Assembly (NCBI GenBank): GCA_030684555.1
Contig: JAUXVN010000074.1
Location: 1 to 64,000 of the forward strand
From: Ignavibacteria bacterium
GTDB lineage: Bacteria; Bacteroidota; Ignavibacteria; Ignavibacteriales; Ignavibacteriaceae
DNA: 64,000 bases
Direction of reading: 5' to 3'
In this document: in pieces, positions 21,492 to 36,362 of the stretch
How the letters are laid out: each line of letters opens with the position of its first letter
Numbering within the stretch: position 1 is the first letter of the stretch
Notes under the pieces: model-generated
Told to the model about the DNA's origin: nothing
The model's input: only the letters and a program-made list of their open reading frames with translations
Database searches by the model: none
Translations under genes and position numbers: made by a program

Positions 21492-24400
21492 CTAAACTAA
21501 AACTTTATTCAAAATTTCAATCATTTTTTCTCTGAATATCGGTTTTGAAATGAAGTCGTTGAAACCGGCAGCAATAAATTTCTCTCTGTCTCCCGGTAGT
21601 ACGTAAGCAGTTACAGCTACAATCGGCATCTTTTCAAATCCCGTCATTTGGTGAATCATTTTCAATGCATCCAATCCATTATATTCACCTTGAAGATTTA
21701 TATCCATGATGATGAAATCAAATTTATTATTTAGTAATAATGGAAGAGCTTCTTCAAAACTCACAGCAAATTTTATACTATTTAATTCTTTCATTTGTAC
21801 TTTGAAAAGAATTTGTGAATCAACTTGATCTTCAATATATAAACAGTTCATTTTCGATAAATCAACATGCTGATGTTCATCTATATCAGAAATACCGGTA
21901 GATGATTTTTGAGTTTTTCTTTCAACAACATAATTGTCTTCACGTGTTAGCCCAACCATATTTTCAACGGTTTGCTCTCTTGATCTTTTCACAAAGACAA
22001 GTGGTTCTTCTTCTTTGGGTAAAACTTTTTGAGGTTCGATCTTTTGGTCCTCAATCATTGCCGGTTTTATTTCTTCCACAACCGGAACAACGTTTTCTTC
22101 TTTTCTTAATTCCGGAGATTCTTCAACTAACATTTTTTCTTCTTTTGGGGGAGTTTCAACTGGAGCTGCATCGTTGAAATAACCGGAAGAATGACCTGTT
22201 CTATCAAACTCCTGAACCTCCTGGTGAATTATTGGAAAGACGAAACCTATTTCAAAAGGTTTACCCATTTTATTAAGAGCTTCAAATTTTCCGTTAAGTG
22301 ATTGTATTAATTCTTTCAAGGCTAATATTGTAAAACGTGAAATACCGTGGTCTCGCCCAATTGTCAAATCCGTTGATTCATTTAATTTCTCAAATAGCTG
22401 TACAACTTTATCAGAAATCCGGATATGATCATCGCGCATCGAAATTACAAAATTATCCTCATCATGCTGATAGCAAGAAATAATATATTGATTTGATTCA
22501 GAAACTTTGGAAAAAATTCTTATTATTAGTGCGAATAATGCTTTCAATTTATTATGATCTGATTCAAAGAAAAGTGATGATGTAACTTTTGATCTTACAA
22601 GTTCTTTCCCTTTTATGTCGTCATTATTTTTTAACTCAAGTGTTAAAAGGTCTAAGAAATCTCCAGTATTTACTTGAATTACTTCACTTTTATTAAGGCT
22701 GCTATCAATTAAAGCATATTCTGCGATACTATTCATTGTTTCGAGCAGCTTAACACGATTTTGCGAAATAATTTCCATTACTTCAATTTGGTCAGCATTC
22801 GGTTCTGAAACATTATCCCTAATCTCTTGAACGAAACCTAAAATTACATTAATAGGAGTAAGAATTTCGTGAAAAATTGTAGAAAGTGTATTCGGGTTAA
22901 TATCACCTTTTGCAATTGAGGAATCACTTTGAATCAATGTTTCTGATGAAGTGCCTTCTTTAAATACTTCAACTTCCTTGATAACTTCTACTTCTTTTAT
23001 TACCTCGACTTCTTTGATAACTTCAATTCTCTCTGGCTCGCGTTTTGCGATAATTGAATATGATTCTATTTCACCTAAAAAATTTCTTACCGGAGATGCT
23101 GATAAATCAACATTTAATAGATTTCCTGAATTGGTTTTAAATTGAACTTTTAGATTTGTTACTGCCTCAATTTTTGCATGGTAAATAGTTGAATTTATTT
23201 TTCCTCTATCATCACCATTTGCAAGAGCTACTAATGAACTTCCAACTAAATCTTTACCCGGAATGCCGAGCGCAGAAACGGCAAAAGGGTTTGCATAAGT
23301 TATAAAGCCGGTGTTGTCAGTAATAAATATAATCGAGTCAGTAGTTTCAAATGCGGATTTATATAATTGGAATTGTTTTTCGTTTTCTAATCTATCAGAA
23401 ATATTTCTTACAATATTATAATGAGCTTCTTTACCGTCGAAGAGGAATTTGGTTTTGCTTATTTCTACAAATACAACATCCCCATCTTTTTTCTTTTGTT
23501 TGAATGGACCTTCAAAAGCTCCTTCATCTTTTCCGCTTGTACTGCTGTCTAACAGAGTCTGAATGTCATCCGGAGTGTAGAGATCGGTTAAATCCATTTG
23601 AAGAAATTCTTCTCTTTTATAACCATACATTTTAAGTGCAGAATCATTCACTTCAAGGAAACGAAGATTTTCGGCATCGTAAATAAATATTGGTTCAGGG
23701 TTACTTTTAATAAGAATGTCAAACATTTTTCCTCTTTTCTTTAATAGCTCTTCTAAACTATTAATTCCTCTGTTATGTTCTACCGAAATAAAAAATTGAT
23801 CTGAATTATCAATTTTATTAAAAACTTTATTAATACTCAATATAAGAGATTGATTCTCTTTAGATTTATTTATTATCTCAAATGGAATTGAACCTTCAGA
23901 ATCCTGCTGAAAAGTCTGTTGAATTATTAATTTTACGTTCTCAGGGAAAATAGAATTTATGTGAGAATCTTTTTCTTCATCTATTGTTAAATCAAATAAA
24001 CTCCTAAATGATGGAGTAGATTGAATTAAAAATCCCTCTTTACTGAAAACAGCAAAAGGTTTTGGTAGCGATTCAAAAAGTTGTTCAGCATTTAAAAGTG
24101 CATTACCTGAAAGTAATGAACTATCTTTATTATCGATTAAAGCAACTCCGACAATCGCAAGTACATTATTTTCAGAATCACTAAGCGGGAATTCAATTGT
24201 CCTGTAACGCTCCAAACGTCCTAATCCCTTTATTGGAATTCCGTCAATTACCAAAGTAGTAAGAGTTTCTTTGATGTAACTTTCCATACTTTTATAAAAA
24301 TCGACTAAATAAAGAGGTAGGAAATGGGATTCTGACTTCCCTTCCAATTGCGCAGGTTTAAGACCAAGGATGGATGCGAATTTCTTATTTACTAAAACAT

Positions 24401-24983
24401 ATATATCATTAGCGTCTTTTATCCAAAAGAGTTGATCAAGCTTGTTTATTTGATTTTGAATCTTACCTTTCCCAAGGAAAGTAAATGGGAAAGAAGCCTT
24501 GATTTCTTCAATAATATTCAAAATTTCTTTTTGTGGAATTAACTCAGAAATATCTTTCTCTGAAATCGATAAATTTAATTGTTTATCATCAACTTCGGGT
24601 ATATAAATTAGATTGAACGAAATAAAAAATAATTGATCAGTAAATTCATTAATGTATGGATTAATACTTATTTCAAATTTATTAACTCTTCCTGATTTCA
24701 AATTGATATTTGCAATTTCCCTAACAAGCTGATTAGATCGAGTTGCATGATCAAAAATTTCTTTCATCCTAAAATTTCCCGGATTGGGGAAGATTTCAAA
24801 TATTGATTCATTCTCATTTGTTAATGAAAATAGTTCACCGGCTCTTTGATTAAAAGAAACAATTGTTCCATGCAAATCAGTAATAAGAGAAGGTGTATTT
24901 ATCCCTTCGGTTAGAACTCTAAAAATCTCGATATTTTGATTAAATTCAGTTTGCATTATTAAACTATCATTCTCTTTTAACAT
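21492..24983 (-). CDS. Five-PAS hybrid sensor kinase with degenerate ATPase domain and C-terminal receiver
   Basis: A 1163-residue cytoplasmic protein with no membrane segment. Five PAS-like domains span about 15-110, 185-290, 300-400, 425-540 and 545-655. A charged linker with a repeated EVIKEV hexapeptide (about 655-680) follows. The phosphotransfer helix is FHEILTPINVILGF with His near residue 703. The next about 150 residues occupy the HATPase position, but the N-box Asn is missing, the G1 D-x-G-x-G reads MRDDHIRIS, and the G2 glycines are absent. A Pro/Glu-rich linker leads to an intact receiver (about 1045-1163): ED pair, phospho-acceptor Asp near 1092 (IIMDINL), Thr in VAVTAY, Lys in SKPI. 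It may receive phosphate from another kinase or act as a scaffold. It lies 5 bp after the lipoprotein gene in the exopolysaccharide operon. Confidence 0.85.
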   Translation of the reverse strand: MLKENDSLIMQTEFNQNIEIFRVLTEGINTPSLITDLHGTIVSFNQRAGELFSLTNENESIFEIFPNPGNFRMKEIFDHATRSNQLVREIANINLKSGRVNKFEISINPYINEFTDQLFFISFNLIYIPEVDDKQLNLSISEKDISELIPQKEILNIIEEIKASFPFTFLGKGKIQNQINKLDQLFWIKDANDIYVLVNKKFASILGLKPAQLEGKSESHFLPLYLVDFYKSMESYIKETLTTLVIDGIPIKGLGRLERYRTIEFPLSDSENNVLAIVGVALIDNKDSSLLSGNALLNAEQLFESLPKPFAVFSKEGFLIQSTPSFRSLFDLTIDEEKDSHINSIFPENVKLIIQQTFQQDSEGSIPFEIINKSKENQSLILSINKVFNKIDNSDQFFISVEHNRGINSLEELLKKRGKMFDILIKSNPEPIFIYDAENLRFLEVNDSALKMYGYKREEFLQMDLTDLYTPDDIQTLLDSSTSGKDEGAFEGPFKQKKKDGDVVFVEISKTKFLFDGKEAHYNIVRNISDRLENEKQFQLYKSAFETTDSIIFITDNTGFITYANPFAVSALGIPGKDLVGSSLVALANGDDRGKINSTIYHAKIEAVTNLKVQFKTNSGNLLNVDLSASPVRNFLGEIESYSIIAKREPERIEVIKEVEVIKEVEVIKEVEVFKEGTSSETLIQSDSSIAKGDINPNTLSTIFHEILTPINVILGFVQEIRDNVSEPNADQIEVMEIISQNRVKLLETMNSIAEYALIDSSLNKSEVIQVNTGDFLDLLTLELKNNDDIKGKELVRSKVTSSLFFESDHNKLKALFALIIRIFSKVSESNQYIISCYQHDEDNFVISMRDDHIRISDKVVQLFEKLNESTDLTIGRDHGISRFTILALKELIQSLNGKFEALNKMGKPFEIGFVFPIIHQEVQEFDRTGHSSGYFNDAAPVETPPKEEKMLVEESPELRKEENVVPVVEEIKPAMIEDQKIEPQKVLPKEEEPLVFVKRSREQTVENMVGLTREDNYVVERKTQKSSTGISDIDEHQHVDLSKMNCLYIEDQVDSQILFKVQMKELNSIKFAVSFEEALPLLLNNKFDFIIMDINLQGEYNGLDALKMIHQMTGFEKMPIVAVTAYVLPGDREKFIAAGFNDFISKPIFREKMIEILNKVLV

Positions 24984-24988
24984 AGTAT

Positions 24989-26242
24989 TTATGGTGTTAT
25001 AGCTGCTTCATTTGAATATTCTGAATAAACGATTTCACTAACTCCTTTTACACGGTATACATTTAACAAACCGGGAGTGTAGGATTTGTCATCGTAAGTG
25101 ATAGAATTACCAGGAATAATTGAGATTGTTTGGAAATTTCCGTTTAGTCCAATTTTTCTTTCAATATGATAGTATTCTTCTTTAAGACTATTATCAACCC
25201 ACGTCAATAATACTACATTTGTAGAATCAGATTTAACTGCTCTTAGGTTTGTAGGTTTAGTAATTTCAAAAGCCCAGGTTTTCACTGATATTTCACCTGA
25301 CCAGGAAGAGTCCGAATCAGAAATTGCTTTTACACGATAAAAGTATTCTGAGTTCATCTGTAATCCGGTACCGCTGTCTCTATAATAATTTTGATCTACT
25401 GAAACAAATCCGACTGATTGGAATGAAGTTACTGCTGTTCTTCTTTCAATTTTAAAGTAATTTTCATTTTCACTATTATCCTGCCATGTAAGCAATATTT
25501 TTGTTGTTCCGAGAGGAGTTCCAGTCAAATTTGACGGGGGTATTACTGAACCCGAACCACCGATTCCGGTAGAATTTACTTCATTACTGTAGGGAGAAAA
25601 TCCTAAATCATTGAATGAGCGTATTTTATAAAAGTAAGTAATTGAAGGATCTAAACTTTGGTCATTTGTATTAAAACTTGAAGAAGTCAAATTTTTAAGT
25701 TTTTCATAATTTCCGGTGAAACCTACTTTTCTCCAAACTTCATAACCTGTTATAACCTTTGCGGTATCTTTCCATGAAAGATTTATTGTTGATGTATTTA
25801 TTTTCGTTACTTTTAATTCATAAGGTGCCGGAGGAGGTGTAACGATGAGTATGACGTGAATATTTGTCATCTTATTGCTTGCAGTTGCATTCCCTTTTAA
25901 ATCATATACAACTATATGATAATTGTAACTTTTATTAACCATTGAAGAATCAACATTCCAATAGACAGCAGGTTTAGTACCGTTGCTATTCATTGCGAAA
26001 CTGTTTTTAAATATATCGTTAACGTAAAGTTCTATGTTGCGTAATCCTTGATCGTCATTCGCATCATAAATTATTTCATGAGTTCCTACATCTATTGTAT
26101 CATTAGAAACCGGTCTGTATACATTTACTGTTGGGTAAATATTATCGGTTCCGGTTAAATTGTCCATACATCCGGTTATTAAGAATGATAAGAACAATCC
26201 GGTAATAATTAAAACTCTGATATATTTTTTATTTGAATTCAT
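24989..26242 (-). CDS. Fibronectin type III lipoprotein of the exopolysaccharide operon
   Basis: A 417-residue lipoprotein. The N-terminus MNSNKKYIRVLIITGLFLSF is followed by the lipobox LITGC, so it is acylated at the Cys. After an Ig-like segment (about 35-130) come three FN3 domains (about 135-225, 235-325, 330-417), each with the W-x-D/D-N-S and Y-x-V/I-x-R signature and ending in YSNEA-type strands. A GTG at 26254 overlaps the upstream stop, but the ATG at 26242 gives the better lipoprotein signal. FN3 lipoproteins often bind carbohydrate or bridge envelope components. A role in guiding or anchoring the polymer is inferred from its place between the deacetylase-like and kinase genes. Confidence 0.75.
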   Translation of the reverse strand: MNSNKKYIRVLIITGLFLSFLITGCMDNLTGTDNIYPTVNVYRPVSNDTIDVGTHEIIYDANDDQGLRNIELYVNDIFKNSFAMNSNGTKPAVYWNVDSSMVNKSYNYHIVVYDLKGNATASNKMTNIHVILIVTPPPAPYELKVTKINTSTINLSWKDTAKVITGYEVWRKVGFTGNYEKLKNLTSSSFNTNDQSLDPSITYFYKIRSFNDLGFSPYSNEVNSTGIGGSGSVIPPSNLTGTPLGTTKILLTWQDNSENENYFKIERRTAVTSFQSVGFVSVDQNYYRDSGTGLQMNSEYFYRVKAISDSDSSWSGEISVKTWAFEITKPTNLRAVKSDSTNVVLLTWVDNSLKEEYYHIERKIGLNGNFQTISIIPGNSITYDDKSYTPGLLNVYRVKGVSEIVYSEYSNEAAITP

Positions 26243-26250
26243 AATATTTC

Positions 26251-28149
26251 TCACACATTAGGTAGATCAAAATCGATATAATAAATTCGAGATTGTTTTG
26301 GACGTAATTTTTCAATCTTCAATGATAAAATTTTTGTAACTTGATCAAATTTAAATTCCGGAATTACCGTCCCAATCATTTCAGAAGTAATTGTTATATT
26401 TTTAACACTCATCTGCATATCTATAGTTATTTGAAAATCATCCATCTCTTCAAAACCAGGGTTACTTATTGTTGCCACTATTCGTGATTCACCGCGCGGT
26501 TCAATTCGAAGTTCAATTTTGTTTTTTTTAACCCACCAATTATAAATTTCACTTGATGACGCTATCCAAATATTTTGTTCTTTCATATATTTAATTATGT
26601 TTCTCAACACACCTGCATTCTCGGGCTTACCTTGAAACTCAGTGTGCATTTTAAAAACATAAAGTCCACCTTCAAAACGAACCCGGTCAACATCCTCCAG
26701 ATAAGTATAAAGCTGAAAATCTTGTTGAGTCAAACCATAATCTCTAATTACTTCATAATCGTCGCGGGCAGTTTTTGTAATTGAAATAATAGCATTTTCA
26801 CCTTTAATTATTGTTCTCGGGACAGATCGATCTGTTAAAGAATCGGTTATAATAAACTTCAAATTATTTTTTGCAAGAGCTAATAAACTATTATCATCGA
26901 ATAAACCATATAAAGGCATAACACCAGTAACCGATTTACCGGAAAATGATTTTAACTTGAAACCAGCAGATTTAAAAGTTTCATTCTGTGTGACAAAATC
27001 ATTTAATTTATTAATTGTATCATTAATTGATGAGAGATATCCAACATCTATTAATGCACCTATTTCACAAACATTTGCAGTATTTTTTAATAATTCGTGA
27101 TGAGTTTCTGCAGTTGTTGGGTCAAAAAATACTGTAGCTTTAACCCCTTCAGACTTTAATATTGGTAATAGATTATTAAGGTTTGAAATTTGTTCATTAG
27201 CAGCGATTGTAAAAAGTGCAGCTGATTCATACTTCCCCGGCCAATCTTTCACAAACGCTATCGGACGATAAACCAACCAGTTGATTGAATTCCCAAACAA
27301 TTTATCAAAATAAATAAAATCCTCTTGAACCCCAATTACTGAATTAATTTCAAATCCCATCCAAACAAAACGTCCTTTACCATAATTGCCATAAGCTATT
27401 CCGGCAGTTTTCTTAACTTGTTCCCTCACTAAACCCATTTCGAGGCGGTAATTGTACCAAAAACTAGCTTGAGTTGAACGTGGTTCAAGAACTTCAACTG
27501 CGATTGGTCTATCCCACGTTGCAATTTTCAAAGGAAACCCGGTCGGTATGTTTGCAGTTAAAGGTAAATTTCCTCTAAGGGTATGAATTTTTGTTGTTTC
27601 ATCTCTCTCAATTTCACGAACAAATTTTAATCCGTATACTTCAGAGAAAAACTCCCACCCTCTCCATTTACCGTCGTTTGAAAAAGAGGCTGTTCCGCTT
27701 GTTGCGAACAATGAACCACCTGCATCAATAAATTTCTTCAGTGAAATAACTTCCTGATCACTCATAGACTTGGAACCGGGTAAAATAATCAAACTATATT
27801 TTTTATGCCGACCCTGTTCTATATCTACGTCACCTATTATATCATAATTAACTTTATATTGTTTTAAAGAATTTGTCCATGTATTTATATTGTCAACTAA
27901 CCATGTACTTCCTTCAGGTAAAAGATTTTCAGTATAATTTGAATAAAGAATTGCGACTTTAGTCGTGGTTGGATCAAAAATATCAAATACTTTTGTAGGT
28001 TTTGAAAGTTGGGAAGTTATATCAAACCGTCCCATTACACCTTTCAACACAAAGAGATAAACTAAAATAGAAGCCAAAACCATCACACCCCCAACACCAA
28101 AGATGATGAAGCTGTTAACAGTCATGCCTTTATTTTTAATCATCTCCAC
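26251..28149 (-). CDS. Membrane-anchored polysaccharide deacetylase-like protein lacking the metal triad
   Basis: A 632-residue protein with one N-terminal membrane helix (about 13-33). Residues about 60-280 form a class I glutamine-amidotransferase-like/trimerisation-type fold (LIILPGSKSMSDQEV; FVWMGFEINS). Residues about 290-520 have a NodB-like layout (SEGVKATVFFDP; TDSLTDRSVP), and a beta-sandwich ends the protein. The NodB catalytic residues are absent: the T-F-D-D position reads FTIAANEQ and the H-x3-H position reads EIGALIDVG. It is probably a polysaccharide-binding pseudo-deacetylase (PgaB/PelA analogue) in the periplasm. The GTG start at 28149 is favoured because GGAGG lies 6 nt upstream; the ATG at 28143 would have a 12-nt spacing. 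It overlaps the previous gene. Confidence 0.75.
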   Translation of the reverse strand: MEMIKNKGMTVNSFIIFGVGGVMVLASILVYLFVLKGVMGRFDITSQLSKPTKVFDIFDPTTTKVAILYSNYTENLLPEGSTWLVDNINTWTNSLKQYKVNYDIIGDVDIEQGRHKKYSLIILPGSKSMSDQEVISLKKFIDAGGSLFATSGTASFSNDGKWRGWEFFSEVYGLKFVREIERDETTKIHTLRGNLPLTANIPTGFPLKIATWDRPIAVEVLEPRSTQASFWYNYRLEMGLVREQVKKTAGIAYGNYGKGRFVWMGFEINSVIGVQEDFIYFDKLFGNSINWLVYRPIAFVKDWPGKYESAALFTIAANEQISNLNNLLPILKSEGVKATVFFDPTTAETHHELLKNTANVCEIGALIDVGYLSSINDTINKLNDFVTQNETFKSAGFKLKSFSGKSVTGVMPLYGLFDDNSLLALAKNNLKFIITDSLTDRSVPRTIIKGENAIISITKTARDDYEVIRDYGLTQQDFQLYTYLEDVDRVRFEGGLYVFKMHTEFQGKPENAGVLRNIIKYMKEQNIWIASSSEIYNWWVKKNKIELRIEPRGESRIVATISNPGFEEMDDFQITIDMQMSVKNITITSEMIGTVIPEFKFDQVTKILSLKIEKLRPKQSRIYYIDFDLPNV

Positions 28150-28634
28150 TTCAAACCTCCACCACTTTTAGCACCTTCTTTAGCAGGAACATAACCTTCG
28201 GAAGTATACTTCATAAATTTTTGTTCTGATGTAGCAGCATGAGGTGGTCCTGCTTGAACTTGACGCGGTTGTTCTTGTCTTTGTGGAACAAACTGCTGAG
28301 GGGCAGGAGTATATTTTGCCTGTGCCGGTTGAGGTGCTGGTTGTTGTCTTGCTGTTTGCACAAAAATAGGTTCTACAGAAGGTCGATATGATGGAACACG
28401 TGATGGTTCAAAAGTAGGTTTAGAAGGTGCTCTGGTAACTTCTTTTGTCTGACTCTGTTCGTAAATAACCTCAGGTGTTAGGACTTCTGCTTGAATAGTA
28501 GAAGGAGCCTGTATTTCAACTTGCTCTCCTCTTCTTTCACGAATCTTGTATAGAGCATAAGCACCTATAGCGAGAAAAAAAGTGCTTATTGTTGCAACAA
28601 GAATAATAGTTGCTAAAATTGGTATGAGTTCCAT
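28140..28634 (-). CDS. Small anchored Pro/Gln-rich protein of the exopolysaccharide operon
   Basis: A 164-residue protein with one N-terminal membrane helix (about 4-28, PILATIILVATISTFFLAIGAYALY), a KIRERR positive cluster, then a low-complexity Pro/Gln/Ala-rich tail of about 120 residues (repeats such as QPAPQPAQAKYTPAPQQFVP). I recognise no domain. Its place between the GT2 polymerase (25 bp upstream) and the deacetylase-like gene (10-bp overlap) suggests an accessory subunit of the synthase, in the way PgaD or BcsF/G-type small membrane proteins accompany theirs. That comparison is by position only. Confidence 0.65.
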   Translation of the reverse strand: MELIPILATIILVATISTFFLAIGAYALYKIRERRGEQVEIQAPSTIQAEVLTPEVIYEQSQTKEVTRAPSKPTFEPSRVPSYRPSVEPIFVQTARQQPAPQPAQAKYTPAPQQFVPQRQEQPRQVQAGPPHAATSEQKFMKYTSEGYVPAKEGAKSGGGLKWR

Positions 28635-28659: not shown

Positions 28660-30072
28660 TTATACTGATGCTTCTTGAGCACCACCGATTCTTTCTAATT
28701 TACCCCAGGTCATTTCAAATCCTAAGAATTCTTCAACAGTTGACATCGCTTTACAAATATCGATGGTAAGTACAAAAAACATTCTGTAGATTAATGCATA
28801 AGGGACTAATCTGAATTCTTCTTTTTCAACTGCTATGCAATAAAGTGCTGTAACCATGTCAAGCAGCGCCAGTGCAGCCCACCAGAAGAATAAGAGACTC
28901 GATAATCCATAAAACAATGCTGCAAATATAAAGAACAAGTTAGAGAAAATATTCATTGCCGGCCATAATAATGCTTCATAAAACATTGTCCAAAGAATAA
29001 ATGTATCACCAAAATTGATAGTCGGATTGATTAATATTTTTTTATGTTTTCTGATAGCTTGTAATATTCCGCGTGTCCAGCGATATCTTTGCTTTAGTAA
29101 TTGCTGTAATTTTTCAGGAGCTTCTGTATAAGATATTGCTCTTGGTTCGTAATAAATTTTCCAATTGTGTGCTAAAATCTTAAGAGTTAAATCTGCGTCT
29201 TCTGCAAAGGTATCACTTGAATAATAACCGGCATCTTCAATTGCTCTTTTTCTGAATAAACCAATTGGTCCCGGAATTATATTTACTAATTTAAGATAAC
29301 TTTGAGCAGCTCTTGCCATATTCAATCCTTCAATATATTCGAGAGCTTGAAGGTCAGTAAATAATTTTTTTCTATTCATCACTTTTACATTACCGGCAAC
29401 TGCACCAATTTCAGGATCACTGAAATGACGAACCGCCATTCTGATTGAATCTTCTGATAATTGTGAATCGCCATCCATACACAAAACTATTTCAGCTTTT
29501 GAGAAGTGAATACCTGCATTAAGGGCTTTTGCTTTTCCACCATTAGGTTTATTTATCAAAGAAATTTTCACATCACCATAACGTCCCGGTTGCAAACCGA
29601 CCAATGTTTTTGCAACTTCAAGAGTATTGTCTTTTGAACCGTCATTAACAATAATTATTTCATAGTTTGAATAATCTAAGTTTAGAAGTGATTTGACAGA
29701 ATCTTTTATTACTTTTTCTTCATTATAAACAGGAACTATAATTGAAACGAATGGGAAGAATCCGGTTTTGGGATTAAAGGTATACTGGGTGATATATAAA
29801 TATGCCATAATAAGTATACCAAAATACCTGAACAATAATACAATAAGAAAAATGAATAAAGAAACGAGTGTCGAATACTCAACGAGTGAGCCGTATGATA
29901 AGATTGTATAAGGAAGTGATATTACAATTATCACAATCATAAGTAGTGACATTAATCCAGATCGCATTAATCTCTTCACGATTTTTTTCTTCTTATCAGC
30001 AGCAGTTGACTTAGTTGTCTGTGTATTCTGTAGTGTAAGTGAAGTTTGCTTTATTTTTTGTTTTGCATTCAT
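28660..30072 (-). CDS. Processive GT2 glycosyltransferase (PgaC/cellulose-synthase-like polymerase)
   Basis: A 470-residue inner-membrane polysaccharide synthase. Two N-terminal membrane helices (about 35-55 and 60-95) precede the GT-A domain. That domain has IIVPVYNEE, the UDP-binding Asp in IIIVNDGSKDN, the DXD in VLCMDGDSQ near residue 199, the general-base region FAEDADLTLKI, and the processive signature QRYRW near residue 329. Three or more C-terminal helices complete the translocation channel. All catalytic motifs are intact. There is no PilZ domain, so regulation by c-di-GMP would need a partner, as in PgaCD. The product polymer cannot be read from sequence; beta-linked glucan or poly-N-acetylglucosamine are the obvious candidates. 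Confidence 0.85.
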   Translation of the reverse strand: MNAKQKIKQTSLTLQNTQTTKSTAADKKKKIVKRLMRSGLMSLLMIVIIVISLPYTILSYGSLVEYSTLVSLFIFLIVLLFRYFGILIMAYLYITQYTFNPKTGFFPFVSIIVPVYNEEKVIKDSVKSLLNLDYSNYEIIIVNDGSKDNTLEVAKTLVGLQPGRYGDVKISLINKPNGGKAKALNAGIHFSKAEIVLCMDGDSQLSEDSIRMAVRHFSDPEIGAVAGNVKVMNRKKLFTDLQALEYIEGLNMARAAQSYLKLVNIIPGPIGLFRKRAIEDAGYYSSDTFAEDADLTLKILAHNWKIYYEPRAISYTEAPEKLQQLLKQRYRWTRGILQAIRKHKKILINPTINFGDTFILWTMFYEALLWPAMNIFSNLFFIFAALFYGLSSLLFFWWAALALLDMVTALYCIAVEKEEFRLVPYALIYRMFFVLTIDICKAMSTVEEFLGFEMTWGKLERIGGAQEASV

Positions 30073-30406: not shown

Positions 30407-33280
30407 CTATAAGAACCAGGTTAAACCGAGAGTTAATGATCTTGAACTATATCCGATAATTTCCCTAACAGTATCACCATAGGATGCAGTTGCATTAAAT
30501 GAAAGTGTCGGAAGTATTTTATACAGAAATTGTCCATATAAAGTTTTAAACAAAAAATTGTTTGATGGAATTATTCCAAATCTTCCACCAAATAATACTG
30601 TCATATCTACAGTCTTGTGTGCAGTCCATTCCCCCCATACAGCATGTGTTTCAGATGCTCCCGGAGAATAATATAAATTAGAAGGACGTGCATAAAGAGT
30701 TGATGTATACTCATATCCCGCTAAAACATCTTCATAGAAATATTTTCCAAGTCGGATATCATAGGTTTGTCCGGCATTGCCATCAGAGATTTGAATGAGT
30801 GCATAGTTACCGCTGATTCGGAGACCTGATTTGAAGCGATAGAAACCACTTAGTCTATATATATTTGATTTAATTCCTTTACCAATTAAATTGAGCGATG
30901 TTAAAGCTTGAGCAGCATCATTAAGTGTATTGGAAAAATATACTGAATACGTTGTATCTTTTGTGACTCTTAAAAAGTATTCCGAAACAGGGGCAGTTAT
31001 TCCTGTTTGATAATAGTTTCTACCAAAACTTCCACCGACAGAAACCATGTTACTCAAGCGAACAATCGCTCCAACAGAAAGAGTATTATGATCTGAACGC
31101 AAAGTCGTAGATTGCAATGCACCTCTAATTGCCGAGAATGTCACCGACAAGAAACTTAAAACACCTACTTCACCTCTGAGACCATAAGTAAGAAATTTAA
31201 AACCAATATTATCAGCGTAATAGTAAAATGTTGGATAGAGAATCATATAACTTGGGAAAGTAGTTAAGAAGCCTCTCCAACCAGTTACCGGCAGCCAACC
31301 TAATCTTTGTTTTACATAGCTAATCTCCAAGCTGTCATTGGTATTATCAAGCAGACTATCATAAATTGCCCGAGCCTCCCCAAACATTCTCATTTTTGTA
31401 TAAGCATCGCCTAATATTAAACGATTTTCGAAACTGTTGTTTCCATTAGTATATACCAATCGCTGAAATTCACTTAGAGCTGTAGTAGAATCACCGCTCC
31501 AATAATAAATTTTCGCACGGGCTAAATCAAGTGTTGAATCGTATTGTTCATCTAAAAGTTGATTAAGAATTGATAATGCCTGATCATACCTTTTTGCACA
31601 GGCTAAAACATCTGAATATTCTTTTAACACTAATGAATTTCTATCTGTATTAGCAATGAACTCTTCATACTTCGATAATGCAGCTTCGCAACCGTATTTA
31701 CTTATGTCCTGACGACCTTCATCCAATAACCTGAATAAGCGGTCTTGCTCCGATCTTAACCGTCTTACTTCAATATCAGAATCAAGTTGAATTAAACTTT
31801 CATCATCAGGATTAGTTTGTTTTGCTAAATCGGAATATTCCTGAGCTTTTTCAAATTCTCCTTGTTGAAGAAATATGTAACCCAATGAAATAATTGCAGG
31901 TAAATTAGTCGGTCTGGCAGACACAACATTCTCAAGATAAGCTTTACCCGACTCAAGTTCCAATCCCGTCCAAGCTGATAATTGCCCTCGTAAAAGCTGG
32001 TAGTCAAGATTATTGGGTGCTTCCTTTAGTAACAAATCCATTTGTTCAATTGCACGTGGATAATCTCTATTCCATGCAGTTGCCTGTGAATAAGCGTATC
32101 GAATTTTTGGATCAATGGGACCGGTAGTCATTTCAAAATATTTATCAAATGCTTCAATAGCCTCATCGTACCGTTGCAGTGCGCCACACATTTCTGCAAA
32201 CTTTAATAATGCATTTTTATTCAGCGGATCTTTATCAAGTTCAGCTTTTGCCAGTTCGATAGATTCATTATAAATACTATCACGAACAACATAAAATCTT
32301 GCAGATAATTCATCATAACGTGGTTTACCGGCTTCTTTGCTGTATAGAAAATCTATTTGTTCGGAAACCTCCTGCAATCTATTGGCTTTCCAAAGTTCAT
32401 TAATTAATAAATATCTTGTTTCAATGTCATTCGAATTGATTTTTATTACTCGATAATATTTATCAATAGCATATTCTTGTTGCTGCTGAAGCTTCCCTTC
32501 CTTGTTCCTTCTGTAATATGCTGTATCATAATAAGTATAAGTATATCCTTTGCCTCGAGCCAGATCTAAACCATCAATGGCTTCTTTGAAAAAAGGACGT
32601 TTTGCGAGTGCATTTTCAAATGCTTCAATTGCAATTTTATTTTTCCCTAACCACATGGTAAAATAACCATACCTGCTCCAGAGACGATGATCATTAGGAA
32701 ATCTTTCAACATATTTTTTTAGGATTCTCTCCCCTTTTTCGATATGTTCATTTTTTTGAAGTATTTCTGTAAATCTGATTACTTCATCCGGGGATGGATC
32801 TTCACGTTTAATATATTGGTCATACCATTCTTCGGCAATTAACCACTCGCCTAAATGTTTATGACATTTACCAATTTCCAGATAATTTATGGGGATATTC
32901 GGATCAATAGCTATTTCTCTACGGTGTCCTTGAATCTTTTGATTTAATTGAGCATACCAATTTTTCGTCATACGTGCAAGGTCTTCAGCAACTTGTTTAT
33001 TTGTAGGAACTAATTTACGTGCAGCTCTAAGGTCAAAAACAGCCATTTCAAGTTGATCTCGTTTTTCATAAGAAAGTCCACGCAAATGAAATCCTTCAAA
33101 CTTCTTTGGTTCGGCGGAAATGTACTTATTCAACAAATCAATTGCTTCACCATAGCGGCCATTTTTCATCTGCATAATTGCTTGATTCTTGAAGTTTTCA
33201 ACTGCAGTTTGAGGATTTTGTCCAAACAACAAATTGGTAAGAATCAAAAGAAACAAAAAATGGTATTTAATTTTAAACAT
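30407..33280 (-). CDS. TPR-repeat outer-membrane beta-barrel protein, exopolysaccharide exporter (PgaA/PelB-like)
   Basis: A 957-residue envelope protein. A signal peptide (MFKIKYHFLFLLILTNLLFG) is followed by about 620 residues of TPR repeats (for example GEAIDLLNKYISAEPKKFEGFHLRG, YDEAIEAFDKYFEM, YDQALSILNQLLDEQ). A C-terminal beta-barrel of about 280 residues (YaiO/PgaA-style alternating strands) ends in SLTLGLTWFL with an aromatic near-terminal residue. Periplasmic TPR superhelix plus outer-membrane barrel is the architecture of exporters PgaA, PelB and BcsC. It lies 18 bp downstream of the KaiC-like gene and shares the operon with the GT2 polymerase, which supports a polymer export role. 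Confidence 0.8.
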   Translation of the reverse strand: MFKIKYHFLFLLILTNLLFGQNPQTAVENFKNQAIMQMKNGRYGEAIDLLNKYISAEPKKFEGFHLRGLSYEKRDQLEMAVFDLRAARKLVPTNKQVAEDLARMTKNWYAQLNQKIQGHRREIAIDPNIPINYLEIGKCHKHLGEWLIAEEWYDQYIKREDPSPDEVIRFTEILQKNEHIEKGERILKKYVERFPNDHRLWSRYGYFTMWLGKNKIAIEAFENALAKRPFFKEAIDGLDLARGKGYTYTYYDTAYYRRNKEGKLQQQQEYAIDKYYRVIKINSNDIETRYLLINELWKANRLQEVSEQIDFLYSKEAGKPRYDELSARFYVVRDSIYNESIELAKAELDKDPLNKNALLKFAEMCGALQRYDEAIEAFDKYFEMTTGPIDPKIRYAYSQATAWNRDYPRAIEQMDLLLKEAPNNLDYQLLRGQLSAWTGLELESGKAYLENVVSARPTNLPAIISLGYIFLQQGEFEKAQEYSDLAKQTNPDDESLIQLDSDIEVRRLRSEQDRLFRLLDEGRQDISKYGCEAALSKYEEFIANTDRNSLVLKEYSDVLACAKRYDQALSILNQLLDEQYDSTLDLARAKIYYWSGDSTTALSEFQRLVYTNGNNSFENRLILGDAYTKMRMFGEARAIYDSLLDNTNDSLEISYVKQRLGWLPVTGWRGFLTTFPSYMILYPTFYYYADNIGFKFLTYGLRGEVGVLSFLSVTFSAIRGALQSTTLRSDHNTLSVGAIVRLSNMVSVGGSFGRNYYQTGITAPVSEYFLRVTKDTTYSVYFSNTLNDAAQALTSLNLIGKGIKSNIYRLSGFYRFKSGLRISGNYALIQISDGNAGQTYDIRLGKYFYEDVLAGYEYTSTLYARPSNLYYSPGASETHAVWGEWTAHKTVDMTVLFGGRFGIIPSNNFLFKTLYGQFLYKILPTLSFNATASYGDTVREIIGYSSRSLTLGLTWFL

Positions 33281-33298: not shown

Positions 33299-34561
33299 TT
33301 ATTCTAAAATCTCATTCAGTAATGTATCTGCATTTTGAACTTTATCATTTACTACATAAGGAAATCCGAACAGATATTGCATAACTAAATCTTGATAGCT
33401 TTTATCAGTGTTAGGTAAATTACTCTTCATTTTACTTACTAATTGACTGTAAACTTTATCATCTGCACTGCTTATAAGAACAAGAACATTATTGTTAACA
33501 ACACATATTTTATCTTTCTTATCTGTAGATAATCTGAGTGCATTTTGGAGCTGCATCATCGATAAAATATTTTGTTGCTGTGCTAACGGATCTAACTTAA
33601 ATGAAATTAATGTGAAAGGTTGTCCCGTGCTTTTATATAAAGCAATTTGATTATTCAAAATAAGTGCGAATTCACTCAAATCATAAAAATTGGAAAATGA
33701 GAATTTTTCTTGAACAACATCTACGTTTGTTAGTGGTTTATATTTAGAGTTAGTAGAAGTTTTGGGAGCCGGAGCAGGTTGAACAATATTTTGACTTCCC
33801 TGCATATGCCCATGTTCAGGAACAACTTGCAATCCCGCATTTTTTTGTGGAACTTCGAAACTAAATGTTATACCTCTATATGGTTCGATAAAATAATCGG
33901 ATGTAAATTGACCTTCAGTATGACCAATATTTGGGGTTATTGTTGCTCTTCCACCTTGCCCGATTCTTCCTTCTTCAGAGTTTTTTTGAAGATAAATTAT
34001 TGCTGTTGAATATTGAGCAATTGTATCAACGATCATTTGTGAAAATGGTGTTGCCGGTTCAGCCACAATAAATAGACTTGTAATATTTTTCTCTTCGATT
34101 GATTCAATAGTATTTAAAAATGTTTGTTGAAGTAATCCTATATTTTCAAATCCCACAAATGGTGTAAGTTCATCAAAAACCAATCTGCTCGGATTATATT
34201 GTCCGACCACAGAAGCAATGTCATTTAAATATTCAACTAAATAATTGTCCGGATTAGCGCTTTCATAAATATCTGCCGGAGGAGCAACCCGAACAACAAT
34301 AATTAAATTTTGATTCATGTAAGTATTTAAATCAAAATCAATTGAAGCTGCATGAATCATTAAATCCTTGGGTCGCATACTGGTGAAAAAGAGGGTTACT
34401 TCTTTATTCTTTGCTGCTTCCATAGCAAATTGAAGTGCTAAGAGCGTTCTCCCGGATTTTCTTGGACCTAAAAGTAGATATGATCCACCACGATAAAATC
34501 CTCCCCACGCTTCATCTACAAGTGAAATTCCGGTTGTTGCTAAATTGAGTTTCTTTTTCAT
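33299..34561 (-). CDS. KaiC/RAD55-like RecA-fold protein fused to a degenerate GGDEF-like domain
   Basis: A 420-residue cytoplasmic protein. Residues 1 to about 225 are a KaiC/RAD55 core: TTGISLVDEAWGGFYRGGSY, then a Walker A of GPRKSGRT (about 33-40) in which the usual Lys is Arg, then the Walker B strand RLVFDELTPF (about 130). After a Pro/Asn-rich linker, residues about 290-405 have a GGDEF-type layout (FTLISFKLD for the lDiD strand; VVNNNVLVLISSAD where GGDEF should be) without the catalytic loop or an RxxD I-site. The combination recalls BcsE, which joins an inactive RecA-like NTPase to degenerate REC and GGDEF domains in cellulose secretion. It is the first gene of the operon. The function is inferred. 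Confidence 0.7.
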   Translation of the reverse strand: MKKKLNLATTGISLVDEAWGGFYRGGSYLLLGPRKSGRTLLALQFAMEAAKNKEVTLFFTSMRPKDLMIHAASIDFDLNTYMNQNLIIVVRVAPPADIYESANPDNYLVEYLNDIASVVGQYNPSRLVFDELTPFVGFENIGLLQQTFLNTIESIEEKNITSLFIVAEPATPFSQMIVDTIAQYSTAIIYLQKNSEEGRIGQGGRATITPNIGHTEGQFTSDYFIEPYRGITFSFEVPQKNAGLQVVPEHGHMQGSQNIVQPAPAPKTSTNSKYKPLTNVDVVQEKFSFSNFYDLSEFALILNNQIALYKSTGQPFTLISFKLDPLAQQQNILSMMQLQNALRLSTDKKDKICVVNNNVLVLISSADDKVYSQLVSKMKSNLPNTDKSYQDLVMQYLFGFPYVVNDKVQNADTLLNEILE

Positions 34562-34662: not shown

Positions 34663-34708
34663 CTCAATACGAGAATATCTTATATGAACGCCTCATTATG
34701 AGAACATC
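34663..34708. repeat. Two imperfect 17-bp palindromic repeats, 29 bp apart
   Basis: CTCAATACGAGAATATC (34663-34679) and CTCATTATGAGAACATC (34692-34708) share 13 of 17 bases. Each carries a CTC...GAG inverted repeat. They sit between the GH9 stop codon and the start of the exopolysaccharide operon, so they could be binding sites for a regulator of that operon. The pattern is short and may be chance. Confidence 0.3.
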
Positions 34709-36362
34709 ACTTTACTGATTGAAAAAAACTAAAGACAAAAATTGCAGTCGCATTACTACCGATAGTTGGCTCATTAGTCACATAATCAGATACATCGTCA
34801 TAAAATTTAACACTATCAGAATTAAATTTATTGAAACGAGTATCTTTCCTTTGAATGTTATAATTCTTTAATATTTCTTCGGGAGTAGGACCCGCAGAGA
34901 CTGCTCCCGGTAAATATCCCCCATTTAAGTATGAAATTTGCGAATGAAAATTTTTAGGATAAACTGATCCGATATTTGAGATAAATGTAGTTCCCCATGG
35001 ATTTTTTCCAAGTATGTAATCCCGCTGAAAAATTAATAACGAATCATACTCCGAAGTTTTAAATAATTTCTTATAAAGAATAGTTTGAAGTGCCACACCT
35101 AAGAGTGTATTGGTTGTTCCCCAGGTAAATACAGCCCCTTCTCCAAATATTGAATTTGCTTTTACATTATTGAATGAAACAAGGTTATTGAGAATATAAT
35201 TTCTGAAGCGTGGATAAACTTTCGCAAGCTTATAGTGAGCTAATGAATTAATATCTCCCCAACTCCACCAGTAATCCGATCTGGCACTATCTGCATATGT
35301 TACTGCGTCAGTTAGGTAACTGCGATTTTTTGTTACATTGTATAATTCAATTGCGCCTAATGCTAACTTTCCCCAAAATCTTGAATCTTGATACATCCCT
35401 GATGGAACACTATCAACATTCGGTACATCATTTCTATATTTGTAAATATTTTCTGCCGCTGTCAGACATTTAATATAATAATAGTCATCACTGAATCTCT
35501 CTTTCCAAATTTTTGCAGCTAAAGACATTACGGCGGCAAACATTCCAATTTGATTTTTACCGATACCTGAAAAAGCCGGTCTATCAAATTTGAGAGGATC
35601 GTTTTCTGGCATTCGAAATCCTTGTTCATGATCCCTCATATCTTGAACCTGGTTGATAAATTTACCCTCAGCATAATTTGCTCTTAATAACCAATCTATA
35701 CCAACCCGTGCTTCTTCTAAAATATCGGGGGCGCCGCTTTTGTCATTATCGGTTTGAAATTTTACCGGATCAAATTCGTAACTGAACAGCAGCAGATATG
35801 TTGTGTAAGCAGTAGTAGAAAAAAACTTAATATAATCACCGGCATCGTGCCAACCGCCGGTTACATCAACTACACCTGCATCTTTATCATTTTCAACTCT
35901 TGGAGAATCATATAAATGACATACCTCGTGGAGGTATGGTACGGTTGGACCACAGCGCTGAACTTTCAAATATAAAAGCAATGAATCAACAATTCCATTG
36001 TAAACATCTTTTGAAATAGTAAATGGAAATGATTTTACTCCGTCAACTTCAATCTGATATTCACCCGTCGTAATAAACTCTGAAAAATCTATTGCGAAAT
36101 GGTTTTTGAAGTTTCCCCAAACTCCTTTGTAATCTTTAATTTCTCCTTTAAATATTTCTTTCTTTGTTTTAACATTTATCAGATTAAAATTATTCTGTTT
36201 AAGTTCACTATTTGTGAAAATTATCGCTGTTTTTATATCTGTTAGAAGAAATCCAACTTGATTAACTCTAATGTAAAGACTTTCATTTTGACTTGATGAA
36301 CACCCGCCAAATACTGTCATTACATTAATGATAAAGATTAAAAACAAACTTTTTATTTTCAC
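34707..36362 (-). CDS. Glycoside hydrolase family 9 lipoprotein (endoglucanase-like)
   Basis: A 551-residue protein. A lipoprotein signal (lipobox VFGGC, Cys at 20) is followed by the GH9 Ig-like N-terminal domain (YIRVNQVGFLL, about 28-115) and a catalytic (alpha/alpha)6 barrel. Active-site landmarks are present: GGWHDAGDYIKF near residue 167 with the nucleophilic-water Asp pair, the GKNPWGTTFISNIGSVYPKNFH loop near 450, and the C-terminal acid in VTNEPTIGSNATA near 533. GH9 enzymes mostly cut beta-1,4-glucans. It lies 145 bp upstream of the exopolysaccharide operon on the same strand. A role in trimming the secreted polymer, like GH8 BcsZ in cellulose operons, is inferred; plain polysaccharide catabolism is the alternative. 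Confidence 0.85.
   Translation of the reverse strand: MKIKSLFLIFIINVMTVFGGCSSSQNESLYIRVNQVGFLLTDIKTAIIFTNSELKQNNFNLINVKTKKEIFKGEIKDYKGVWGNFKNHFAIDFSEFITTGEYQIEVDGVKSFPFTISKDVYNGIVDSLLLYLKVQRCGPTVPYLHEVCHLYDSPRVENDKDAGVVDVTGGWHDAGDYIKFFSTTAYTTYLLLFSYEFDPVKFQTDNDKSGAPDILEEARVGIDWLLRANYAEGKFINQVQDMRDHEQGFRMPENDPLKFDRPAFSGIGKNQIGMFAAVMSLAAKIWKERFSDDYYYIKCLTAAENIYKYRNDVPNVDSVPSGMYQDSRFWGKLALGAIELYNVTKNRSYLTDAVTYADSARSDYWWSWGDINSLAHYKLAKVYPRFRNYILNNLVSFNNVKANSIFGEGAVFTWGTTNTLLGVALQTILYKKLFKTSEYDSLLIFQRDYILGKNPWGTTFISNIGSVYPKNFHSQISYLNGGYLPGAVSAGPTPEEILKNYNIQRKDTRFNKFNSDSVKFYDDVSDYVTNEPTIGSNATAIFVFSFFQSVK

Follow-up and report, generated by a model that had tools for sequence, protein, structure and literature searches.

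A probable KaiC-like and GGDEF-like double pseudoenzyme heads a polysaccharide secretion operon in Ignavibacteria and relatives of the same phylum

Textbook accounts commonly place the synthase-dependent exopolysaccharides of Gram-negative bacteria under the control of c-di-GMP. The locus described here raises the question of what a protein that joins a KaiC-like domain to a GGDEF-like domain, with degenerate motifs in both, does at the head of an operon for such a polymer. It lies in a contig stretch of 64,000 nucleotides (the window) from a 4.34-Mb genome of Ignavibacteria type, whose nearest named relative is an Ignavibacteriaceae MAG with 80% identity. The original prediction, read from the DNA letters and translations, described an open reading frame at 33299-34561 and proposed that its product is a possible analogue of BcsE, the protein of enterobacterial cellulose systems. 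The coordinates proved correct; the frame runs from 34561 to 33299, being on the minus strand, and its product has 420 aa (Table 1). The family to which this product belongs is a well-conserved, probable double pseudoenzyme heading a polysaccharide secretion operon, and no description of it was found in the literature searched: on polysaccharide proteins that join KaiC to GGDEF, and on exopolysaccharides of Ignavibacteria in connection with KaiC or c-di-GMP, nothing pertinent came up apart from the BcsE paper.

Table 1. Coordinates of the features at the locus, in positions of the window; residue numbers refer to the KaiC-like/GGDEF-like protein
Feature	Position	Strand	Basis
KaiC-like/GGDEF-like fusion protein, 420 aa (stop included)	33299..34561	-	ORF and translation; orthologues
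KaiC/RecA-like pseudo-ATPase domain (predicted), residues 4-237	33851..34552	-	PF06745, E 9.5e-21; model versus 8wve
Degenerate Walker A GPRKSGRT, residues 32-39, Arg38 replacing Lys	34445..34468	-	Ortholog column counts
SM, residues 61-62, where KaiC has the catalytic Glu-Glu pair	34376..34381	-	No Glu/Asp in 52/52
Walker B LVFDEL, residues 127-132	34166..34183	-	D130 and E131 in 52/52 in the order
Hairpin ITPNIGHTEG, residues 208-217	33911..33940	-	Column counts; invariant P210, N211, G213, H214
Linker without a REC domain, predicted to be disordered, residues 238-290	33692..33850	-	pLDDT <50 for 238-271 and 280-289
GGDEF-fold domain without active site (predicted), residues 291-420	33302..33691	-	Predicted fold; weak Pfam matches
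DKKD, residues 347-350, at the RxxD I-site position	33512..33523	-	Column counts
NNN, residues 356-358, at the GGDEF motif position	33488..33496	-	Beta-hairpin turn in the model
TPR and beta-barrel exporter-like protein, PgaA/BcsC-like architecture, putative barrel	30407..33280	-	TPR families
GT2 polysaccharide synthase, PgaC/NodC-like	28660..30072	-	PgaC_IcaA, E 3.6e-63
Small one-helix membrane protein, candidate partner	28140..28634	-	Alignment
Membrane-anchored NodB/GATase-like protein without deacetylase motifs	26251..28149	-	Weak PF01522/PF08532
fn3-domain lipoprotein-like gene	24989..26254	-	PF00041, E 1.1e-15
PAS/histidine-kinase/receiver hybrid that ends the gene run	21492..24983	-	Reading of the translation
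GH9 endoglucanase-like lipoprotein gene, upstream	34707..36362	-	PF00759, E 1.2e-72

Almost every sampled genome of the order has a full-length orthologue (52 proteins); about 15 more were identified across the phylum, and none in the genomes sampled from elsewhere in the class. When 395 genomes of the phylum were searched with a profile, 54 carriers were retrieved at an E-value of 1e-30 or better; 16 of them fall outside the class of the window, and their proteins have the identical layout of KaiC domain, linker and C-terminal domain. In the tree, the family is separate from the canonical two-domain KaiC of its own genome. The full-length AlphaFold2 model, built with the 52 orthologues, has a mean pLDDT of 83.9 and consists of two folded domains and a linker, the inter-domain arrangement not being fixed by the model (pTM 0.57). 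Scans of the gene's surroundings for sigma-70 promoters and for terminators gave scores no better than those of shuffles.

The N-terminal domain is predicted to have the fold of KaiC. In Pfam, the KaiC family (PF06745) covers aa 9-198 at 74.7 bits (cut-off 26.6), and residues 4-237 of the model superpose on the CII domain of KaiC (8wve) with a VIA Z of 27.2 and an rmsd of 2.5 over 218 aligned residues, the KaiC matches reaching Z values of about 24-27. It had been noted from the sequence that Walker A carries Arg in place of Lys and that Walker B is kept; both readings hold, and the first is a family trait. Position 38 (codon AGA in the window) is Arg in 46 of the 52 orthologues of the order and Lys in the remaining 6, and 13/14 distant relatives also have Arg, a conservation by which chance or a sequencing error was ruled out as the source of Arg38. 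Lys35, present in 51/52 orthologues of the order, could stand in for Lys38. Within the order, Lys38 arose more than once, with at least three changes forced by well-supported branches, and thus position 38 tolerates Arg or Lys; given these returns, phosphate or nucleotide binding could still matter. At the position of the KaiC Glu-Glu pair, neither site is acidic in any of the 52 orthologues, position 62 being D or E in 10/14 distant relatives. The K-x-R-G strand, which in KaiC provides the K/R finger, is replaced by an invariant I-x-P-N-x-G-H (52/52). By comparison, both domains of the canonical KaiC encoded in this genome carry GKT, EE and K-x-R-G. The family thus shares with KaiC the fold and an above-threshold Pfam match, but is single-domain and has not kept the Walker A Lys, the catalytic Glu pair or the K-x-R finger. 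By analogy with KaiC biochemistry, the loss of these residues would abolish ATPase activity, and the sequence gives no sign of a competent ATPase site.

It might be argued that the KaiC-like domain still works as an ATP-binding switch, with no or very slow hydrolysis and with nucleotide-dependent rings like those of KaiC. The otherwise intact Walker A (G32, G37, T39), the Walker B D130-E131 pair, invariant in the order, and the repeated regain of Lys38 are what such a switch would retain, but the replacement of the Glu pair and of the finger is complete in the order and, in a sister lineage, most members have neither Thr39 nor the Walker B Asp and yet keep fold and operon. Among the distant relatives, T or S occupies the Thr39 position in 3/14, and D130 is D in 4/14 and mostly N. 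We therefore regard a switch of this kind as unlikely.

The C-terminal domain was modelled alone from 62 relatives, 13 of them distant, with a pLDDT of 93.5 and a pTM of 0.85. Its secondary-structure order (H-E-H-H-E-E-H-H-E-H) agrees with the GGDEF-like succession of strands and helices that had been proposed, and the predicted structure is GGDEF-like: all 50 rows listed by the VIA search are GGDEF-fold chains, with 6khu leading among the matches listed (Z 12.5, rmsd 2.9, 121 residues), the PelD structure 4dmz superposes with a Z of 11.8 and an rmsd of 2.7 over 119 residues, and Foldseek matches the GGDEF fold with an E-value of 2.3e-5. The top meaningful Pfam families among the members are GGDEF_2, PelD_GGDEF (weak matches in 4 members) and GGDEF, with weak E-values. 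Since the C-terminal profile, run against PDB sequences, retrieved neither GGDEF nor PelD and only unrelated matches (AP-2 adaptin, OT3), the GGDEF assignment rests on the fold together with these Pfam matches.

As in the original reading, NNN takes the place of the GGDEF motif, in the turn of a hairpin; the family consensus at this position is (D/E)NK, and GG(D/E)EF occurs in none of the 62 members scanned. The domain has its fold in common with diguanylate cyclases (PF00990) but not their active-site motif and, judging from these columns, should make no c-di-GMP. The missing I-site is likewise a property of the whole order, in which Arg at position 347, and with it RxxD, is found in 0/49 and D350 in 43/49, K351 being invariant and positions 348 and 349 basic in nearly all. 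Binding of c-di-GMP by the GGDEF-like domain is thus unlikely in this lineage. An RxxD is present in 8/13 distant relatives, where it lies five residues before the GGDEF motif position, a spacing that we take from PleD to be canonical. These relatives (L101-L116) keep it though nearly all their genomes are without GGDEF proteins, and it could be a relic or serve another ligand.

The carrier genomes were searched for GGDEF, EAL and PilZ proteins, with control genomes responding each time; strongly diverged GGDEF domains would escape these searches. PilZ was found in 0/26 genomes searched and EAL in 1/27, and GGDEF is absent in 15/16 distant carriers, the exception being in both cases G432. Its protein (G432:C2:334312-335553, a 1235 aa frame) is an apparently intact GGDEF-EAL protein, the only such among the distant carriers. 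Every sampled genome of the order has one GGDEF-family match, a GAF-GAF-GGDEF protein in which GRLDERLF or similar replaces GGDEF in all nine read; this protein, found for instance at G000:C9:169115-169579 (locus L118), is conserved yet degenerate. An additional GGDEF-EAL protein was found in G597, a genome flagged as 8% contaminated. Hosts of the family mostly seem to be without c-di-GMP, the signal such domains normally sense. An early census reported diguanylate cyclases to be absent from four Bacteroidetes genomes (PMC1183210).

These data bear directly on a true functional analogy with BcsE, in which the GGDEF-like domain would sense c-di-GMP and pass the signal to the synthase. The two outer domains and the operon type are as in BcsE (PMC7439463), and the canonically spaced RxxD of the distant relatives would fit, but the I-site is missing throughout the order, the only GGDEF protein of the order is itself degenerate, PilZ was found in none of the genomes searched, and EAL proteins and, in the distant carriers, GGDEF proteins are nearly absent, so that we consider this reading very improbable. 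The GGDEF-like domain could also be a receptor for another nucleotide, for example c-di-AMP, whose phosphates would be contacted by the Lys patch 348/349/351. The conservation of this patch in the order and the presence of a diadenylate cyclase in 16/16 carriers tested are in line with such a receptor; these cyclases are, however, widespread and their presence says little, the patch is not kept in the distant relatives, and we know of no GGDEF fold that binds c-di-AMP. A receptor of this type seems to us improbable, if somewhat less so than c-di-GMP sensing.

The genomic context was then considered. The gene had been placed at the head of an exopolysaccharide operon, and this position recurs throughout the order: the TPR-porin gene directly follows in 52/52 (gap of -13 to 32 bp), and the full downstream set of porin, GT2, small membrane protein and deacetylase-like protein is present in 47/52, several of the others being truncated where the contig or the retrieved region stops. 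The same gene order is found in distant carriers from other families of the phylum. The GT2 protein scores 213.9 bits against PgaC_IcaA, under the curated cut-off of 422. The GH9 gene lies immediately upstream in 46/52, which hints at a beta-1,4-linked polymer. Given that TFDDG and H[ST]xxH are absent from all NodB/deacetylase-like homologues scanned (including L035-L116), the NodB-like protein, itself a further apparent pseudoenzyme in the operon, probably does not deacetylate the polymer. Homologues of the PAS/histidine-kinase/receiver hybrid occupy the equivalent place at several loci. Four genomes of the order without the KaiC-like gene are also without the synthase, and three (G317, G429 and G550) have the KaiC-like gene and no synthase. 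No recognisable polysaccharide genes were seen near the orphan distant homologues L112, L114 and L116, which are without a synthase; Pfam matched none of the genes next to L112 and L114, and those next to L116 are unrelated (UvrA-like).

Within the operon, the small membrane protein is a candidate partner. In its alignment, an N-terminal helix that hardly varies is followed by a Pro/Gln-rich linker and by a C-terminal F..YT.EG[YF]VP...W tail that is kept between classes, and given the positively charged exit of the helix, the tail is probably cytosolic. In the 395-genome sample, the protein is present in 48/54 carriers versus 0/341 non-carriers (Fisher p 1e-55, a value that ignores shared ancestry and is partly explained by operon sharing). 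At the equivalent place of the operon, the f39 family encodes a 336-aa protein with the same plan. In E. coli, the tail of BcsF adds a strand to the sheet of the NTPase-like domain of BcsE and thereby recruits BcsE to the membrane (PMC11470070), a parallel that we treat as a lead and not as a test.

How far the resemblance to BcsE goes was assessed separately. The N-terminal domain of BcsE was itself modelled on KaiC, and the protein also carries a degenerate GGDEF domain (PMC7439463). Common to both are thus a RecA/KaiC-like N-terminal domain, whose inactivity is judged from the fold and the lost residues, a degenerate C-terminal GGDEF domain and a polysaccharide-secretion operon with a small one-helix membrane protein (compare BcsF). 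In contrast, the family has a disordered linker in place of the central degenerate REC domain, no I-site in the order, a PgaC-like synthase without BcsB (PF03170 in 0/16 genomes), and hosts that mostly have neither c-di-GMP enzymes nor PilZ. The BcsE HMM (PF10995) had no match at E 1 in the genome of the window, with a positive E. coli control, and hhalign of two family alignments (A1, A2) against E. coli BcsE gave a probability of 0.2%, a weak test with a single sequence as target. The BcsE structures 9fnn, 6tj0 and 6ybu are not among the fold-search matches listed, but as KaiC and GGDEF chains fill these lists, their absence carries no weight. Membership in BcsE, failing on both HMM and domain layout, was rejected. 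Neither of the outcomes that would have spoken against the original reading was seen: the C-terminal domain is predicted to be GGDEF-like, and nothing points to a competent ATPase site. Of the analogy first suggested, the architecture and the operon setting stand, while the implied role of c-di-GMP probably does not apply to this lineage. The way of working may be partly that of BcsE, and the protein would be at most a c-di-GMP-independent analogue.

Two other systems offer partial parallels. PelD (PF16963) likewise combines a GGDEF fold without the motif and a place in a polysaccharide operon; it binds c-di-GMP via its I-site, whereas the present protein has no RxxD, no GAF domain and no PelD membrane part. 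GdpS has a conserved GGDEF domain and no KaiC domain, acts on expression and lies outside the polysaccharide operon. Like the present family, it is a GGDEF-domain protein tied to polysaccharide, in this case to ica expression in staphylococci, and its effect is reported to be apparently independent of c-di-GMP (PMC9714401).

Taken together, we propose with reasonable confidence that the protein is a c-di-GMP-independent cytosolic pseudoenzyme that serves a synthase-dependent machine for exopolysaccharide secretion as an assembly scaffold or as a regulator, because the catalytic residues are consistently missing from the family, the gene is linked to the operon and co-inherited with it, and a c-di-GMP system seems to be missing. 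The KaiC-like domain would have kept its fold and lost the residues of ATPase chemistry, and the GGDEF-like domain would be a retained fold that makes no c-di-GMP and is unlikely to bind it in this lineage. The protein would probably sit beneath the GT2 synthase, recruited by the small membrane protein through its conserved tail in the way that BcsE is by BcsF, and may link synthase and TPR porin to a signal that is not c-di-GMP. The Lys38 returns, the near-invariant Lys35, the invariant Walker B D-E and the three carriers without a synthase are points against a scaffold. More tentatively, and as a possibility that we would not yet favour, this could be a phylum-level secretion system in which a double pseudoenzyme (dead KaiC and dead GGDEF) has replaced c-di-GMP control, with a BcsE-like architecture reached independently and sensing taken over by contacts between proteins or by another nucleotide.

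From this family, a possible organisation of such a machine can be drawn for lineages apparently devoid of c-di-GMP enzymes and PilZ, in which the GGDEF fold would persist as a structural or interaction part. It would also represent a second, apparently independent pairing of a KaiC-like pseudo-ATPase with a pseudo-GGDEF domain in polysaccharide secretion, by which a mechanical reason for the pairing becomes testable.

Some variants of the gene were also observed. The most divergent homologue of the order (L080, in G207) has GSKNSAKS as its Walker A, its neighbours have diverged and its genome has no close synthase. At three loci (L052, L046 and L067), one or two tandem paralogues consisting of the KaiC domain only are found directly upstream of the full-length gene, some of them with Lys in Walker A.
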